A DNA stretch of 64,000 bases from assembly GCF_000184685.1 (NCBI RefSeq), contig NC_014830.1, forward strand, positions 806,001 to 870,000, written 5' to 3'. This stretch comes from Intrasporangium calvum DSM 43043. Its GTDB lineage: Bacteria; Actinomycetota; Actinomycetes; Actinomycetales; Dermatophilaceae. This document shows, in pieces, positions 43,816 through 51,476 of this stretch. The translations under genes were made by a program, and so were the position numbers. The notes beneath the pieces were generated by a model. That model ran no database searches. It was not told the DNA's origin and saw only the letters and a program-made list of their open reading frames with translations. Position 1 is the stretch's first letter, and every line of letters begins with the position of its first letter.

Positions 43816-44549
43816 TCAGCCGTTGAGCCTCGCCGCGCGCTCGAGTCGCTCGAGGGCCTCGGCGGCATTCTCTGCGGCCATCGCGGAGTCGTCTTTTCGG
43901 CAGCTGATGAGCATTTTCCGCAGTCGTGTGCGGTCCTTATTCACCAGTTCAGTCTCTCGGAAGTCGCGAGCCGATATGAGGCTGGCCAGCACGACGAAGT
44001 CGGCGCAGTGACGCGCGTTGGCCCTGTCCGAGGGAATCTCGGTCCGGGCAGCGGCCTTTGCCACGAGGGCTCCGACGATGTTGGGGCGCAGCACCGTGCC
44101 GGTTCGGCCCTCAACCAGTACGAGGACGGGCTCGCTGCGGCTGAGGGCCTGAGTGGTGCCGGCCGACGGGATGGTCGGGGCGCCCGCGGCGCCGGTGCTC
44201 GCGGCGGCACGTTCGCCGACGCCTTCGGGGATCAGGACGTCGATCTGGGCAAGCTCGCGACGCCAGCGGTGCTGGGTGCCGTCGCCGGAGATGTCGGCGG
44301 TGAAGCCCAGGTCCTTCAGCGCGCCGGTGAAGGTCGCGAGGATCGTTGGGGAGGCGTGGATGTTGACGACCGTGTCGACGTCGTTGGTCGGACGGGTGGG
44401 GGACACGCCCGCTCGGCGCAGTGCAGGTGCACGAGCTGACCGCCAATGAGGGTCCAGTTGGAGTTCACCTGCTCATAGAGGTCCATCAGGGCGTGCCAGG
44501 ACTGCTTCTGGGCCTCACTCAGGGCGGGTAGTTGCACGGCTTCAGTCAC
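43816..44549 (-). CDS. AbiEii-like nucleotidyltransferase, frameshifted at a C tract
   Basis: The gene begins at GTG 44549 (VTEAVQLPALSEAQKQSWHA) with WTLIGGQLVHLHCAERAC, the N-terminal GG-containing nucleotidyltransferase motif. After the run of five Cs (44398-44402 on the plus strand) the frame changes. The next family block, PTRPTNDVDTVVNIHASP, with the metal-binding D-x-D, continues one frame away to the stop at 43816. One more C would restore a 244-residue protein. It overlaps the HTH gene by 8 bp. It may be a toxin of the AbiEii/MenT type that is switched off, a slippage switch, or a sequencing error. Confidence 0.7.
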
Positions 44550-45324
44550 GGCTCGCTCCGACGACTCCTGCTGCGCGGGCGACGAGTCGGAAGTCCAGGT
44601 CGGCAAGGCAGCGGATGGCTTGGCTCTTCTCGCGGAGGCCATCGTGCTCGGCCAAGTCGGCAGCGAGCGCGAGCGGGGAGCGAGCAGCGTCGTCGAGCGC
44701 CTCGTGGAGCGGATTCGCGGCATCCGAGGGCACCACGTGCAGGATGACGTTGGCGCGAGAGCGCGGAGCGGGAGAGAGCAGGTAGTCATCGACGAGGGCG
44801 TTGAGATTGTCGGAGGACACATATGCTTCGGCCACGTCGCCGAAGGAGAGGCCCGACTCGTGCAGCGAGACACCGGAGAGGTGAACGCGGTTGTCTTCGC
44901 GGAGGTCCGGCAGGTCCCGCGGGGAAGCGGCGAACAGGGCTCGCTCAGCCCGGTTGCGCAGAGCCTTCACGATGTGGGCCGCGGCCTCCTCGAGGTCAGC
45001 CGAGGACCCGTGGACTAGCAGGTTCCGCAGCCGCGAGCGGGCGCGGGATCGGGCCGAGGGGCTGAGGCCAGAGGAAGCCTCGTCGCCAGCCGCGACTGCG
45101 AGCAGGTCCCAAGCGGACTTGGCCGACAGGGGACGCCCCGGTCCGGCGTGGTGCTTAAGGCGACGCAGTTCGTCCCTCTCCATGGCCCACTGGTTCCCGA
45201 TCTTCTCAGCGGCCAGCGAGCCTTGTCGTATGCGCTGATGGACGCGCTGCGAGTGGACACCGAGCATCTGAGCAGCCTCGGCTACGCTCACATACCTACC
45301 AGCCACGTTGCGCCTTCCCTTCAC
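44542..45324 (-). CDS. HTH (excisionase/MerR-like) partner of the nucleotidyltransferase
   Basis: This 260-residue protein has an N-terminal winged helix (VSVAEAAQMLGVHSQRVHQR, IRQGSLAAEKIGNQWAMERD). A long helical C-terminal domain of unknown fold follows, ending DLDFRLVARAAGVVGASRD. Its gene overlaps the nucleotidyltransferase start. A perfect palindrome across the predicted -10 region (45341-45355) suggests it represses its own operon. By layout it is the antitoxin or regulator of a two-gene system. The GTG at 45324 is used; GTG 45306 is an alternative. Confidence 0.75.
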   Translation of the reverse strand: MKGRRNVAGRYVSVAEAAQMLGVHSQRVHQRIRQGSLAAEKIGNQWAMERDELRRLKHHAGPGRPLSAKSAWDLLAVAAGDEASSGLSPSARSRARSRLRNLLVHGSSADLEEAAAHIVKALRNRAERALFAASPRDLPDLREDNRVHLSGVSLHESGLSFGDVAEAYVSSDNLNALVDDYLLSPAPRSRANVILHVVPSDAANPLHEALDDAARSPLALAADLAEHDGLREKSQAIRCLADLDFRLVARAAGVVGASRD

Positions 45325-45479: not shown

Positions 45480-46153
45480 TCAGACTCCGGCAACGTAGGC
45501 GGTCAGGAAGGGGACGCCGTGCCGGTCGAGGTTGCCCCGGGCGCGGTCGTAGTGCTCGGTCGTGCGCGGGTCGGCGTGGCGGGGCAGGATTTGCGCGTCG
45601 CGCAGTGGGACTCCGGCGTCCAAGGCGTTGGTGATCGCGGCGTGCCGCAGCGAGTGGGGGCTGATGTGGCGCGGGATCCCGGCGGCCTTCGCGATCCTCG
45701 CGACCATCCGGTAGACGTCGCGTCGGTCGCTCGGCTTCCCGGAGACCGGTCGCAGCACCAGCGTCCCGATGTGCGCTGGCCGCGGCAGGCTTCCAGCGCT
45801 CGTAGCACGGGGACCGTCACCCGCATGGTGGCGGGCTTGTTGCCCTTGCCGACCAAATGCAGGACGCGGTGCCCGCGCAGCGTGTCGGCGTAGTCCTCGA
45901 TCCGGACCGCCGCCGCTTCGGACGCTCGGAGAACGTTGATGCCAAGCAGGTAGGCCAAGGCGCCGTGGTGCACGGTGATGGTCTGGGCGACCTGCAGGAA
46001 CCGGATCAGCTCGAGCCGGTCCAGGCCCTGGATGCCGGTCTCGTCGCGGTGGACTTTCGGCAGCCGAGCGTAGACCGGCCGGGTCCGCGGCGATGACCCC
46101 GTCGATGTGGGCGAAGCGGAAGAATCCGCGTACGCCGTGCATCATCGTCGTTT
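45480..46153 (-). pseudogene. tyrosine integrase, 3' part, separated from its 5' part by a transposon
   Basis: Reading from 46153: TMMHGVRGFFRFAHIDGVIA; then, in a second frame, YARLPKVHRDETGIQG and LEACRGQ; then, in a third, HIGTLVLRPVSGKPSDRRDV, HSLRHAAITNALDAGVP (His-x-x-Arg) and TEHYDRARGNL with the nucleophilic Tyr, to the stop at 45480. At least two frameshifts are present. The missing N-terminus is at 49590-49834 on the other side of the Tn554-like element. Confidence 0.82.
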
Positions 46154-46220
46154 CCCACGAGTTCACGAAAACTGAAGCCCGTCGTGGCGGGAACTCAAGG
46201 GTGGGGTCGCGGTGAGACGC

Positions 46221-47996
46221 TCATTGGGGTGTGTCGGTTCGCGAACCCGCGGGGTCGGTGGTGAAGGCGTCCAGGTCGGGGTGGCTCACGGTGCGCGCGT
46301 AGTGCTCGGCGGTCTCGATTGTGACGCCGAAGAAGTCGCAGATGCGGCGCAGGTCGCTGCCGGCGTTCGCCTCGGCCAGGATCCGGTCCTGGCGCAAGGC
46401 GTCTGCGGACATGCCGAGCTTGTCGGTGAGCCAGGGGACGCGGACCTGCTCGGGGGTGGCGGCCGACCTGGCATGGATGAGGAAGTGCGGGTTGATGCAG
46501 CCCGGCCACCGCTCGCGTCGGTAGGCGAGGTACCGGTCGAGCCGGGCCTTGGTCGCCGGGGCCAGCAGGATGCTCCGATCGGGCAGCGTGATCCGGTTGT
46601 CGCGGACCTCGAACAGGTGCAGGGCGCAGGCCTCCCGGGGGCGCAGCCCGTGGATGCCGATCAGCGTGGTGATGGCGGCGGTGGCGGGGTCGTCGGAGTC
46701 GAACGCGGCCCGGATGGCGGCGGTGGCGATGGGCATCGGGGTGCGCCGCTCGAGGGTGCCGACCCGAATCCGCGCGGTCGGGTTGACGAACAGGAGCCGG
46801 TGGCCCTTGAGGGTGGTGAATATCGAGCGCAGGGCGGCACCGAGAGTGGCCCGGGGGGTGCCCTCGCCGGGGAGCACGGCGAGGATGTCGGAGCGTGTGA
46901 TCTCGCGCAGGGAGTGGTGCCCGTCCGCGGCCCAGGCCCGCAGGGTGGGCATGGCCCACAAGGTGCGGGTCCTGATGGTGCCCTCGCTGCGGGGATGGCT
47001 GCGTGGCGGGACTGTGCTGCCGTGGTGCAGGACCTCGAACCAGGTCTGCAGCTCGCTGGCCATCGCTTCGGGCAGGCCGTGCAGCTGCCGTGTGAACCAG
47101 GTGACCAGCCTCGGAGGACGGTCATCGAACAGCAGGTCGGCCTCGGTCAGGACTGCCATCGGCAACCGGACCCGCAGCCCGTCCTCGATCAGTTGTTGAA
47201 CATCGGTTGCCCTGACGGGCGGTCCATAGAGACGGGACCGGGCTTGCAGCACCCGCAACGTGATCCGCGTCTCTTTGGTCTGCCGGGTGGTCCAGCCGTA
47301 GCGGGCGGCGTGCTCGAGGGTGAGCTGGTCGAGCAGCGCCGCGAACCGGCTGCTGGGCGGGTCACCGAACCCGTACCGGCGGGCTGGATCCTCGATGGGG
47401 TGGTACGCGAACAGGTCGAGCTGGCCCGGGCCCGGGGCAGTAGGGGCGGCTGGTTCACCGGCGGTGGGGTCCTCCTCGACCGGGTGGCGCTGGTCCCGGG
47501 GCCGGCGGTAGTCCCGCCGGGGGTGAGGCCGGTAGCCGTTGCGGGGGTTGGTCATGTTCGCGAACCACAGCTGCTGGCCGGCCTGGTTGGCGCTCAGGAC
47601 GTCGCGAGGAAGACCGAGCTGGGCCTGACGGGTGAAGGTCTGGGCCCAGCACAGCCGGCACGCCTGGTGCTGGTTGACCGCGAGCTCCCTGTGGCAGCAG
47701 ATGCATTCGCCGGCCCCGGGGTGAGCGTAGCGCCATGCCGTGCAGGCCAGGCAGAGCCGGCCTCGCAGCCGGGTCACGCCCCAGGCGAGACAGTCGCGAC
47801 AGGAGTCAGGCGCTTGCGGGGCGAGCGGGTGGCACAGGCGGCACAGCCCACTGGACCAGTAGTCGCCGTCCCGCCCACAGCGGCGGCATGGCAGCGGCCT
47901 GCCCTTGGATCCCGGCTTGCAGTCGTAGCACCAGCCTCGCTTCCGGTATGCCTCGGGCCTACGGCTGCAGCCTTGGCACATGGGCGGGGCGGTCAT
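46221..47996 (-). CDS. TnpB-like tyrosine recombinase with N-terminal zinc ribbons
   Basis: This 591-residue protein begins with at least five CxxC pairs (residues about 5-130: CQGCSRR, CYDC, CRRCGRDGDY, CRLC, CRDC, CLAC, CICC, CRLCW), suggesting several zinc ribbons that bind DNA or partners. A helical core-binding region follows (about 210-400). The C-terminal catalytic part has GIHGLRPREACALHLFEV (first Arg region) and FFGVTIETAEHYARTV with the Tyr. The internal HxxR is not obvious, as in other TnpB-type recombinases. The start overlaps the stop of the HTH gene by four bases. Confidence 0.75.
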   Translation of the reverse strand: MTAPPMCQGCSRRPEAYRKRGWCYDCKPGSKGRPLPCRRCGRDGDYWSSGLCRLCHPLAPQAPDSCRDCLAWGVTRLRGRLCLACTAWRYAHPGAGECICCHRELAVNQHQACRLCWAQTFTRQAQLGLPRDVLSANQAGQQLWFANMTNPRNGYRPHPRRDYRRPRDQRHPVEEDPTAGEPAAPTAPGPGQLDLFAYHPIEDPARRYGFGDPPSSRFAALLDQLTLEHAARYGWTTRQTKETRITLRVLQARSRLYGPPVRATDVQQLIEDGLRVRLPMAVLTEADLLFDDRPPRLVTWFTRQLHGLPEAMASELQTWFEVLHHGSTVPPRSHPRSEGTIRTRTLWAMPTLRAWAADGHHSLREITRSDILAVLPGEGTPRATLGAALRSIFTTLKGHRLLFVNPTARIRVGTLERRTPMPIATAAIRAAFDSDDPATAAITTLIGIHGLRPREACALHLFEVRDNRITLPDRSILLAPATKARLDRYLAYRRERWPGCINPHFLIHARSAATPEQVRVPWLTDKLGMSADALRQDRILAEANAGSDLRRICDFFGVTIETAEHYARTVSHPDLDAFTTDPAGSRTDTPQ

Positions 47997-48316
47997 GCCG
48001 GTGGCTGGCTCCGGCTCCGGCCCGGGGTACGGCGCCGGCCGGATGAGGCGGTTCGCGCGTTGGCCGTCGTCTTCGTGGCGGGCTTGCGGGCGGCGACTGC
48101 CTCGGGCTCGCAGATCAGCAGGTCGGCTGGGGTGCAGCCGAGGACGAAGCAGATCACGTCGAGATCGTCCAGCCGGATCGTGGTCGGGGTGCCGGTCCAC
48201 AGCCCCGACATCTTCCCGGCGCTGATGTCCAGGCCGGCCTCGGCCAGCATCCGGCGTAGCTCGGTCGACTTCCAGATCCCGGCCTCGGCGGCCTTCATCC
48301 GCATGTTCCAACGCAT
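47993..48316 (-). CDS. XRE-type HTH protein of the Tn554-like element
   Basis: This 107-residue protein has a Cro/CI-like helix-turn-helix: STELRRMLAEAGLDISAGKM, SGLWTGTPTTIRLDDLDVIC and FVLGCTPADLLICEP. The basic C-terminal tail is disordered. It sits where Tn554 would carry a small accessory gene, but between the two recombinase genes. It is separated from the TnpA-like stop by 4 bp and overlaps the TnpB-like start (ATGA), so all three are coexpressed. It probably regulates them. Confidence 0.8.
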   Translation of the reverse strand: MRWNMRMKAAEAGIWKSTELRRMLAEAGLDISAGKMSGLWTGTPTTIRLDDLDVICFVLGCTPADLLICEPEAVAARKPATKTTANARTASSGRRRTPGRSRSQPPA

Positions 48317-48320
48317 CGGT

Positions 48321-49421
48321 TCATCGCTCCTGGCGGGTGGTCATGGTCCCGAGGCGGTCCAGGGTCCGCTGGTTCGCAGCAGCCCAGGACGCCTCGATAT
48401 GGGTGGAGTGGACGTGGATGTACTGGGTGGTCGTGGAGAGCCAGCTGTGTCCCATCAGCTCTTGGATCGCCTTGAGGCTCATGCCTTGCTGGTACAGATG
48501 GGACGCGCAGTAGTGGCGCAGCACGTGCGGGGTGAGCCGACCGGTCCACGTCGGCAGCCACGCCTGCACGGCGTGCCCGAGGCCGGCGCGCAATGCCTCG
48601 GCGCCGATCCGGGTGGCGTGCCCGGTCATCGCGTCTCGTCGTTCGCTCGGCAGCAGTGGCGCGCTCGGGTCGTCGGCATCGTCGCCGAACTGGTGGCGTA
48701 CGTCGGTCAGCCACCACTCCAGCAGCGCGTCGACCTCGTCGATGGCCGGCACGATGCGGATCTTGGCGCCGCGGCCGCGGCTGCCCTTGCCGTGTCGCAC
48801 ATGCAGCTTGCCGTGGGCACCGAGGTCGGGGTGCCAGTCGCCGATGTCGAGCATCACGGTTTCGTTGATCCGCAGCCCGACTCGTCGCCACAGCGAGGCC
48901 GCGAGGTAGTCCCGGGCCGCCGGCAGGTACTTGCGGGCCACGGGCAGCGCCTGGCCCCAGGAGGCGAACAGGGCGCCGACCTCGTCGGTCGTCGGCGGGA
49001 TACGCGCTGCGGTTGCCGCGGCAACGGCGCGCGGCCGGTTGAACTCGTCGATCGGCTGGGTGACGACCTGCCCGAACAGCGCATGGATGTCGCCCTGGTA
49101 GCGGGCGATCACGAACTCGTAGAACTTCGCCAACGCTGTTGCCTTGCCCGCCACGGTCGAGGTGGCCAGCCGGCGCTCACGACGTGCCGCGCGCAAGTAG
49201 CGGTCGGCGTCCTCGGGCTGCGCGCTCCACAACGGGGCACCCAGGAACCGCGCGAACTCGAAGACGACCGAGCGGTCCGCCGCGGTCGTCGCGTCCAGGG
49301 TCCCCGCCGCGGCCGACGCCAGCGAGTACTGGTCGATCATCTCCTGCTCGAACGCCTCGACGTCCAGACTGCCGTGCAGGCTTCGGGCCGAGTCCACCGA
49401 GCGGACCACTGCCAGTGTCAT
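48321..49421 (-). CDS. TnpA-like tyrosine recombinase
   Basis: This 366-residue phage-integrase-type recombinase has an N-terminal SAM-like core-binding domain (about 50-150; TAADRSVVFEFARFLGAPLW). The catalytic domain has LWRRVGLRINETVMLDI (first Arg), VRHGKGSRGRGAKIR (Lys in the beta hairpin), LTPHVLRHYCASHLYQQG (HxxR) and LMGHSWLSTTTQYIHVH (His/Tyr). It is the first gene of the three-gene element. Confidence 0.88.
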   Translation of the reverse strand: MTLAVVRSVDSARSLHGSLDVEAFEQEMIDQYSLASAAAGTLDATTAADRSVVFEFARFLGAPLWSAQPEDADRYLRAARRERRLATSTVAGKATALAKFYEFVIARYQGDIHALFGQVVTQPIDEFNRPRAVAAATAARIPPTTDEVGALFASWGQALPVARKYLPAARDYLAASLWRRVGLRINETVMLDIGDWHPDLGAHGKLHVRHGKGSRGRGAKIRIVPAIDEVDALLEWWLTDVRHQFGDDADDPSAPLLPSERRDAMTGHATRIGAEALRAGLGHAVQAWLPTWTGRLTPHVLRHYCASHLYQQGMSLKAIQELMGHSWLSTTTQYIHVHSTHIEASWAAANQRTLDRLGTMTTRQER

Positions 49422-49589
49422 CGAACCCCCGCTTCACGAAATGAGGTGCTAGCTCTGAAACCTAGCATCAGCGTCAGGAATCCTGAGGATCTGTCGAGGC
49501 GTGTTCGGGATCAAGCCGGGCTGCATCGCAGCAGGTCACAGACGTGCCAAGGCTGTTCCCCGTGGATCGAACCTGAGGCAACTGAAATA

Positions 49590-49834
49590 ACGACCGTGGA
49601 GTCCATCAGGCCTCGGTCACCAAGGCCGCGGATGTAGAGCTCGACATGCGCTCGTTGGACCCCGACCAGCGGGTCGAGCCCGTTGCCCTCGCACCAGGAG
49701 AACCACTCCCGCAGCTGGTAGGCGTACAGGACGTGGGTGTGCCCGGCGTAGCGGGCGAGATACGACACGGCCGCGAGCTGAGCGGTCGACATCGCCGCCG
49801 GCTGGAACGGCAGCAGCGTTGTTGGGCTGGACAT
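49590..49834 (-). pseudogene. tyrosine integrase, 5' part
   Basis: The frame starts ATG 49834 (MSSPTTLLPFQPAAMSTAQL) and encodes the N-terminal core-binding domain: YLARYAGHTHVLYAYQLREW, FSWCEGNGLDPLVGV, RAHVELYIRGLGDRGLMDST. It then runs into the Tn554-like element and stops at 49511. The natural continuation is at 46153. Confidence 0.82.
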
Positions 49835-49984
49835 GGCCTCACCTCACGCGGCGAGAAGACAAGCGGCCCAGACCCCGCTCGCCGCCACCGCAGCCGGGCA
49901 GCCGGACTCCTCGAAACTAGACCGCTCCAGTCGCGTCCGCTCGCGGCTGTTAGACGATTGTCGGCGGGACCGGTGTCCGGCCAG

Positions 49985-50186
49985 ACTCGGTTCCAGGTGC
50001 CCGGTGGGCTGCTCTTCTCGCGGCTGCCCACCAGTGTGATCGGTGTGGCTCTCTTTCGGTTTGCATCCCGCCGGGTGCCGTGACGAGGTGTGGCTCCAGA
50101 GGGGACTGCCCTGCTCGTAACAGCAATGCCCGCCTCGCGATCCCTGCAAGTGCACGACGAGACGAGGACGAGGTGTCGAGATTGCG
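49985..50186 (+). ncRNA. leader of IS110 element A, probable bridge RNA
   Basis: The 200 bp before the transposase is non-coding but conserved with element C, including GCCAGACTCGGT, GCTGCCCACCAG, GATCGGTGTGGCTC and GGGGACTGCCCTGCTCGTA. IS110-family elements transcribe a structured bridge RNA from this region to choose donor and target DNA. The loops that differ between copies would be the guide segments. Strand and ends are inferred. Confidence 0.6.
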
Positions 50187-51476
50187 ATGGTGTTCATGGG
50201 GGTCGATCCCCACAAGCTGTCGGTGACGATCGAGGTCGTCGATGACCACGAGAGCGTGCTGGGCACGGGTCGGTTCGCCACCGACAAGGCCGGGTACGCC
50301 GCGATGCGCAAGCAGGTGCGGGGGTGGCCGGAGCGGGTCTGGGCGGTCGAGGGCAGCAACGGCGCCGGCCGGCCGCTGGCGCAGCGGCTGCTCGCCGACG
50401 GTGAGCACGTCGTGGACGTCCCCGCGAAGTTGTCGGCCCGGGCCCGGTTGCTCGACACCGGCCACAACCGCAAGACCGACGCCCACGACGCGCACGCCGT
50501 CGCGGTCGTCGCGGTGCGCACTCCGGGGTTGCGGGTGCTGTCCTACGACAGCGAGCTCGAGGCGCTGCGGATGCTCGTCGACCGCCGGGAGGAGCTGACC
50601 CGGCAACGCGTGCAGACCGTCAACCGGTTGCAGCGGCTGCTCTCCGAGCTGACCCCCGGGAAGGCGAAGAAGGACCTGACCGCCTTGCAGGCCAAGGCAA
50701 TCCTCGCTTCGGTGCGGCCCCGGGACCTGGCCGGCAAGACCCGGCGCCGGCTCGCGGTCGAGCAGCTGACCGAGTTGGTCGCGGCCGACAAGAAGACCAA
50801 GGCGCTGAGCAAGGAGCTGAAGGCGATCGTCTTGTCCCGCGGGTCGCACCTGATGGACCTGCGCGGCGTCGGCCCGGTGGTCGCCGCGCGCACGTTGGCC
50901 GACGTCGGTGACGTGGCGCGGTTCGCCGACCGGAACCGGTTCGCGTCCTGGACCGGTACCGCCCCGTTGGACGCGTCCTCCGGCGAGCAGGACCGACACC
51001 GGCTGTCGCGGGCCGGGAACCGGCGGATGAACCACATGATCCACATCGCCGCGATCAGCCAGATCCGACTCGCCAGCGAGGGCCGGACCTACTACCGGCG
51101 CAAGCTCGCCGAGGGCAAGAAGCCCCTCGAGGCGATCAGGTGCCTCAAGCGCAGGATCTCCGACGCCCTCTACCGCCAGCTCGTCGCCGACGCCCGTGCC
51201 GTTGAAACGGGCCCGGGAGGGCACTGCGGGGCGACTCAAGAATCCAGCGCGGTCGACCTGCCCCCGCACATCGACACTTCGGATCAGCCACTTCCCGGAC
51301 CCGCACCTACCACGCTACCGGCCGCCGTGGCCCGTGCGAACCCCCACCCGGGCTCGGCTCCCCAGATGACGCGACGACGCGCCGGAGCCGTCAAGGTGGA
51401 GCGCCCCACCGGACGAACGACCTTGACGGCGACCAGCGCCGGCGCACACTCGAAAGAGCCGATCCCGGCCCCTTGA
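50187..51476 (+). CDS. IS110-family transposase
   Basis: This 429-residue recombinase has the DEDD RuvC-like N-terminal domain (MGVDPHKLSVTIEV, WAVEGSNGAGRPLAQ, DTGHNRKTDAHDAHAV). The C-terminal Tnp_20 domain has HhH motif LRGVGPVVAARTLADVG and the serine-containing WTGTAPLDASSGEQDRHRLS and GNRRMNHMIHIAA. A Pro/Thr-rich tail of about 80 residues is longer than in most relatives. The frame is intact, so the element may be active. Confidence 0.93.
   Translation: MVFMGVDPHKLSVTIEVVDDHESVLGTGRFATDKAGYAAMRKQVRGWPERVWAVEGSNGAGRPLAQRLLADGEHVVDVPAKLSARARLLDTGHNRKTDAHDAHAVAVVAVRTPGLRVLSYDSELEALRMLVDRREELTRQRVQTVNRLQRLLSELTPGKAKKDLTALQAKAILASVRPRDLAGKTRRRLAVEQLTELVAADKKTKALSKELKAIVLSRGSHLMDLRGVGPVVAARTLADVGDVARFADRNRFASWTGTAPLDASSGEQDRHRLSRAGNRRMNHMIHIAAISQIRLASEGRTYYRRKLAEGKKPLEAIRCLKRRISDALYRQLVADARAVETGPGGHCGATQESSAVDLPPHIDTSDQPLPGPAPTTLPAAVARANPHPGSAPQMTRRRAGAVKVERPTGRTTLTATSAGAHSKEPIPAP

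Follow-up and report, generated by a model that had tools for sequence, protein, structure and literature searches.

What separates the two pieces of a tyrosine integrase gene in Intrasporangium calvum DSM 43043? The pieces lie on the minus strand of a 64,000-bp stretch of contig NC_014830.1 (positions 806,001 to 870,000), called the window throughout. They enclose three genes, here called the trio, encoding two tyrosine recombinases and a small helix-turn-helix (HTH) protein. Considered together with its ends, its second copy and its relatives, the enclosed segment is very probably a self-contained, cargo-free transposon moving by site-specific recombination. The original prediction had described a Tn554-like element caught inside an integrase gene. 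The insertion was borne out by five uninterrupted homologues with open frames and by a second copy in a paralogue; the Tn554 label, as worded, was not supported. The features are, in window positions:

46150-49589, minus strand: whole predicted mobile element, 3,440 bp, delimited by the empty homologous sites L046-L050 and by the identical second copy in a paralogous target
48321-49421, minus strand: tnpA-like tyrosine recombinase, 366 aa (PF00589, E = 1.5e-21)
47993-48316, minus strand: Cro/CI-type HTH protein, 107 aa, third core gene (PF13443 HTH_26, E = 5.6e-15)
46221-47996, minus strand: large degenerate tyrosine recombinase, 591 aa (family profile and Foldseek)
49590-49834, minus strand: N-terminal piece of the interrupted target integrase (alignment to L046-L050)
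45480-46149, minus strand: C-terminal piece of the target integrase, with a reading frame that departs from that of copy B
49568-49589, minus strand: left-end 22-mer (N17-GTTC-N), a geometry common to the 14 copies with a left end present
46150-46166, minus strand: right end, GAAC-N5 followed by the terminal hexamer GGAAAC (46150-46155)
49422-49589, minus strand: 5' non-coding region, 168 bp, with TTCNTGA motifs at 49473-49480 and 49433-49440, 40 bp apart

The open reading frames (ORFs) and their spacing were as predicted: a 4-bp gap separates tnpA from the HTH gene, which overlaps the large recombinase gene by 4 bp. In the ORF list, the latter lies inside a longer frame with an earlier start; the 591 residues correspond to 46221-47996. 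The original prediction had matched these genes to Tn554 by size.

The exact junctions, 49589/49590 and 46149/46150, were set by the five uninterrupted integrase homologues L046-L050. Six homologues, selected from the many found by the search, were examined (L046-L050 and L056); all are continuous across the site, five with open frames and L056 with a broken one. When compared with the uninterrupted homologues, the integrase flanks of the window rejoin without loss or target duplication. The C-terminal piece is frame-shifted with respect to the second copy. A larger element comprising both integrase and trio was also considered and was rejected, as some integrases are intact and lack the trio, and unrelated genes also harbour the trio.

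A gene for an excisionase-type HTH_17 protein of 260 aa follows closely downstream of the interrupted integrase, at 44542-45324; it may once have belonged to the same older element as the integrase.

The second copy (copy B; the window copy is copy A) was found in the same genome at about G000:C1 3,873,599-3,878,390, at the same exact site of a paralogous integrase. Apart from an insertion in the large gene of copy B, which brings its length to 4,792 bp, the two copies show 0 mismatches over the element, whereas the integrase flanks differ by about 12% (the paralogues are about 88% identical). The first mismatches appear at the sixth base outside the left end and at the nineteenth base outside the right end. 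The identity of the two genomic copies suggests that the element was recently active. In copy B, the large recombinase gene is broken by a transposase element (L004:7008-8354; ORFs of 109 and 311 aa; Pfam HTH_Tnp_1 and rve), which we take to be IS3-like. Besides copies A and B, a search of this genome with the integrase piece gave no match above 34% identity.

IS110-type transposase genes lie near both integrase copies (window 50187-51476 and L004:2251-3546), and window positions 49941-50500 are 98.9% identical to the corresponding L004 stretch.

In addition, the ends were compared among relatives, named here by locus number. A single rule, N17-GTTC at the left and GAAC-N11 at the right, fits 15 copies, 14 with a left end and one, L017, with a right end only. 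The right end thus lies 11 nt beyond GAAC, and the last six of the 11 form the terminal hexamer. Both ends were set independently of the rule in 10 of the 15 copies (A, B, L040, L042, L043, L069, L076, L077, L013 and L016); the counts leave out L044, L045, L070, L075, L078, L012, L014 (right ends) and L110 (candidate ends). Four pairs of filled and empty plasmid sites (L042/L065, L069/L071, L040/L074 and L043/L073) indicated insertion without target duplication, although the junction was uncertain, before the end rule was applied, by at most about 4 bp (L042) and 2 bp (L043); L068 and L041 were too diverged from L071/L072 for junction placement. The copies L076 and L077, carried by two plasmids of Streptomyces NBC_00984, are identical from the first to the last predicted base (3,843 bp) and have different flanks. 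For L013 and L016, similarity (91.8%) starts 2 bp outside the predicted left ends and stops exactly at the predicted right ends. Cargo-free copies measure 3,365-3,499 bp (8 copies) and cargo-bearing ones 3,843-6,383 bp (L076, L077, L013, L016 and L015). When symmetric terminal inverted repeats were looked for by eye, only GTTC/GAAC stood out, and its two halves are not equally far from their ends (17 nt at the left, 11 nt at the right).

At L015:4249-4274, a right end (..GAGCTTCTAACCTGC) stands immediately next to the left end of a full element, joined to it through ACCTGC. This would represent a tandem insertion or a solo right end; the same joint would be expected of a circle or a tandem.

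Between the left end and tnpA, the distance is 167-172 bp in all nine elements with both points resolved. In 13 such 5' regions the motif TTCNTGA occurs 11 times, against 0.7 in shuffles, and six regions lack it; as the motif was picked by eye from these same, related sequences, the count is a description and not a test. It lies at -59, -39 and -19 in L070 (three in a row, L070:2887-3056) and at -59 and -19 in the window.

The proteins of the trio were then compared with their relatives. The catalytic set of TnpA is complete (R184, K212, H299, R302, H325 and Y334) and invariant in the 16 aligned sequences; the boxes carry the names customary for the family. Identity to the window protein is 44-80% for TnpA (15 relatives), 49-84% for the HTH protein (14 relatives) and 29-71% for the large protein (17 relatives). 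Conservation of the HTH protein to this degree beside the two recombinases indicates that its gene is a core part of the element and not a passenger.

No Pfam or NCBIfam match was obtained for the large protein at E≤1. It matched a PHROGs integrase family (E = 1.8e-7), and a profile of 18 large-protein relatives retrieved XerA (E = 4.6e-7), XerD and lambda Int from the PDB. As to the structure prediction proposed for this protein, all of Foldseek ranks 1-14 were tyrosine recombinases; E was ≤0.001 for three, TM-scores were low, and the model used was of low confidence. Tyr566, R535, R538 and eight cysteines are invariant in 18 of 18 relatives. The box-I Arg is present in 7 of 18 (Ser/Thr in 11), the box-II His in one of 18 and the box-III His in none, the boxes being assigned by alignment to PDB recombinases and by the usual features of the family. 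In the window protein, eight CxxC motifs start at residues 7 to 113, within the N-terminal 116 residues; the cysteine richness had been predicted correctly, and "at least five" pairs become eight. Altogether, the large protein is a degenerate tyrosine recombinase.

To which known system could such a trio belong? Van Houdt et al. 2012 list actinobacterial Tn554-related pairs, Famint36/41 and Famint27/33, with long proteins of 611-828 aa and a third gene that is TnpC or absent (PMC3414803). Like the trio, these pairs combine a tyrosine recombinase of normal size with a long one in the same orientation, and they occur on plasmids and chromosomes of actinobacteria, in some cases as identical copies; unlike them, the trio has a long protein of 591 aa and an HTH gene. 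Plasmid pNOCA01 carries both kinds, a 411 + 797 aa pair at 109.9-113.5 kb and the trio at 24.4-27.6 kb. By hhalign, the large family of the trio gave no usable match to the 797-aa protein (probability 2.8%, E = 0.016, 52 columns). From the accession in the published table, the trio was first assumed to be the Famint36/41 pair of pNOCA01; this was rejected, given the second, longer pair on the plasmid and the hhalign result. As the table has no coordinates, the assignment of Famint36/41 to the 411 + 797 aa pair rests on protein length and gene order (PMC3414803). The trio thus appears not to be among the 2012 pairs, and the literature, searched by title and opening of abstract, gave no description of it. 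The 411 + 797 aa unit corresponds to L111:874-4511 (NC_008697 109873-113510), where no HTH gene is annotated.

For Tn554, the comparison used as a stand-in the pNL1 element listed by Van Houdt, presumed to be the pair at 136.7-140.1 kb; since single sequences were used, a remote kinship could be missed. The pNL1 gene order is short-long-small, and its small protein matches DUF6262 (E = 6.8e-6, just below the cut-off). No DUF6262 (TnpC-type) match was found among the window proteins, nor any match between the trio HTH profile and the third pNL1 protein. With the long pNL1 recombinase as proxy, the large recombinase again lacked a usable match (hhalign probability 0.06%); TnpA matched the short one weakly (BLASTP, E = 2e-5, 23%). 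Tn554 with its TnpABC proteins and the trio have in common two tyrosine recombinases, a small third protein and site specificity (PMC3414803, PMC10214605). Both insert without target duplication. The trio differs in having no TnpC-type protein and in its HTH_26 protein, which is encoded between the recombinases and not after them. With these differences, and with the missing matches to the pNL1 and pNOCA01 long proteins taken as Tn554-type, the Tn554 label is not supported as worded.

The strand-biased circularizing integrative elements (SE) share with the trio the order intA-small gene-intB, inverted end motifs, a 6-bp spacer and cargo-bearing forms (PMC10214605). However, they have four core genes (intA, tfp, intB and srap) and are reported from Gammaproteobacteria, whereas the window element has three, with an HTH_26 gene in the middle and no fourth; both SE recombinases carry RHRY, which the large protein of the trio largely lacks (PMC10214605). 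GInt elements likewise combine several tyrosine recombinases with a small protein, and one of their recombinases lacks a catalytic residue, but they comprise three recombinases and GinD, carry 2.5 to 70 kb of cargo and reside in other hosts, against two recombinases here (PMC5385486). RIT elements are similar in size (about 3.5 kb), in their three overlapping genes and in their ability to sit inside other mobile genes; all three of their proteins are tyrosine recombinases, in contrast to the HTH_26 protein in the middle of the trio (PMC3414803). The trio works like Tn554, SE and GInt elements yet fails one defining feature of each, and is therefore filed as a variant beside them.

In SE and Tn554-related elements, six bases of the donor's left flank are reported to be copied to the new right end (PMC10214605). 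That the window element is an ordinary member of this kind is a possible but unlikely explanation; on the copying of six bases the signals point both ways. The lack of target duplication and the 6-bp spacer geometry agree with it. In L041, L042, L068 and L069, the inner 20 bp are constant (20/20 in all six pairs) and the hexamer varies (4, 4, 3, 6, 4 and 4 of 6 matches), as such a footprint predicts. The hexamer ACCTGC, common to L013 and L016, is also the left six of L015, which directly follows another right end, so that a donor resembling L015 could explain it; for the identical pairs, a third donor common to both members could do so. On the other hand, in neither identical pair (A/B and L076/L077) does the hexamer equal the partner's left six, with which it shares 1 or 2 of 6 positions, and it is the same in both members (GGAAAC in A and B). 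The left flanks of A and B are nearly equal (5/6 in the left six), which makes this pair of little weight. L013 and L016 have their common hexamer in ATPase genes that are 31% identical, and neither the missing TnpC nor the large recombinases without usable hhalign matches suit an ordinary member. Target identities are 89-90% for L041, L068 and L069 and 82-93% for L013, L015 and L017; as each group may derive from one insertion, the hexamer comparisons within them say little.

A second alternative is that copy B arose by segmental duplication or gene conversion instead of a second insertion, the trio being possibly dead. We consider it improbable. Both copies occupy the same site of homologous genes and have a common right hexamer, and the broken large gene of copy B would suit a dead trio. 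However, the step from no mismatches inside to about 12% outside falls at the element ends, so that a conversion tract would need to end within 6 and 19 bp of them, and relatives are placed cleanly in unrelated genes.

The transposon interpretation was further examined in the distribution of relatives. In a tblastn search with the large protein, 91 of 72,556 plasmid records matched, 22 of them covering at least 80% of the query; ten genera were named, all actinobacterial, and the closest relative was on pNOCA01 of Nocardioides JS614 (69.6%). A search for the trio in the same gene order had been proposed along with the original prediction: the HTH gene lies between both recombinase genes in each of the 14 plasmid loci with the trio that were inspected, which were mostly the best-scoring, with a few picked for a visible HTH or a second copy in the match list. 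Thirteen of these middle genes are annotated as HTH or Cro/CI; that of L045 is a conserved hypothetical, yet it aligns with the HTH relatives. The HTH_26 domain was likewise present in L013 and L110. A scan of genome contigs gave six loci, five actinobacterial and one (L016) labelled as an Anaerolineales metagenome-assembled genome. Among viral contigs, no relative was found in a first scan and one (L110) in a second. This contig, filed as viral (IMGVR_UViG_2932377721_000001), carries a trio relative followed by a gene for a DUF4262 protein.

In ten relatives (L040, L041, L042, L043, L068, L069, L013, L015, L016 and L017) the element is found, with heads opposed, at the very 3' end of a gene from a single family, that of a conjugation ATPase; these are 10 of the 11 resolved relatives outside Streptomyces NBC_00984. 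Comparison of eleven flanking genes showed the ten targets to be mutually similar, with many pairs only 25-35% identical and some without a match. A P-loop is present in nine; in L016, which is on a mixed contig, the ORF is a fragment of 275 aa. In all ten, the element takes in 3-69 bp of the gene's 3' end together with the stop codon, and so provides the gene with a new end. On annotated plasmids, the target gene belongs to a conjugation cluster, beside SCO6880- or VirD4-type genes. L039 similarly adjoins a type II secretion F gene, with 66 bp inside the element, and L076 and L077 occupy two sites other than the conjugation-ATPase gene. Mid-gene insertion, which destroys the integrase in the window, is an exception among these sites. 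Elements L042 and L069 are 88.8% identical (DNA) and their target ATPases 53.6% (protein), which indicates separate insertions at homologous sites. It is hardly credible that the trio is an immobile regulatory or immunity module of conjugative plasmids: its frequent place at the 3' end of the ATPase gene would fit, but plasmids without it exist, it is also found within integrase genes of the present genome and at two further places in NBC_00984, and the L042/L069 discrepancy speaks against it.

Cargo, where present, lies between the large gene and the right end; in the window copy these 71 bp are gene-free. The cargo genes of the relatives are:

L015: ArsR regulator, cation-efflux protein and HupE/UreJ protein
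L013 (same ORFs in L016): MerR regulator and a small protein without Pfam match
L017: CNNM/CorC protein and an ORF without match
L077, and L076 with the same protein accession: GNAT acetyltransferase

Since some relatives carry cargo, the window element is a cargo-free minimal form of a wider class, in line with what had been suggested for it.

In the mechanism that we propose, TnpA would carry out cleavage and strand exchange, both at the ends of the element and at the target. The large protein, with its zinc-ribbon-like head, recombinase fold and few catalytic residues, would act as a partner subunit shaping end or target recognition. The HTH protein would bind the 168-bp 5' region, possibly at TTCNTGA, and build the recombination complex and/or control the operon, a role comparable to that of TnpC, Srap or GinD in other groups. 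In a circular intermediate, right and left ends would be joined via the 6-bp spacer; after integration at a weakly conserved site, the target's six bases would lie at the left and the six brought along by the element at the right.

Several observations weigh against this interpretation. Movement and the circle are deduced from sequence comparison, and the functions proposed for the HTH and large proteins from their conservation. The end motif by itself placed five of the 15 copies (L039, L041, L068, L017 and the right end of L015). Left-to-right copying of six bases, reported for SEs and Tn554, was seen in neither of the two identical pairs; the intermediate may differ from that of SE/Tn554, or the donor may be a third copy. 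The AlphaFold model of the large protein, built with 7 sequences, is weak (pLDDT 59.6, pTM 0.30). Finally, relatives are rare: among 396 genomes of the phylum, own genome included, the large protein was found in 8 at E≤0.001, several only weak, and the HTH protein in 8 at E≤1e-10.

With these points in mind, we tentatively put forward, at somewhat less than even odds, a further group beside integrative and conjugative or mobilizable elements (ICE/IME), SE, GInt, RIT and Tn554. It would be defined by an obligate trio of a complete recombinase, a degenerate zinc-ribbon-headed recombinase and a conserved HTH protein, nesting in genes of other mobile elements (3' ends of conjugation ATPases, integrases) and moving between sites with a terminal hexamer that may be its own. 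The way in which two or three tyrosine recombinases work together in Tn554, RIT, SE and GInt is an unsolved question. The trio makes this division of labour testable, being 3.4 kb long with exact ends, filled and empty sites, intact and broken identical copies and a naturally decaying partner. It would also give a name to integrase neighbours annotated as "hypothetical protein" on conjugative plasmids of actinobacteria, and the family is a vehicle for metal-transport and other cargo.

In Streptomyces NBC_00984, a further pair of short and long recombinase genes was noted about 1.1 kb beyond the trio copy (L076:7822-10509), and the same plasmid has integrase-domain matches with equal scores at a second place.

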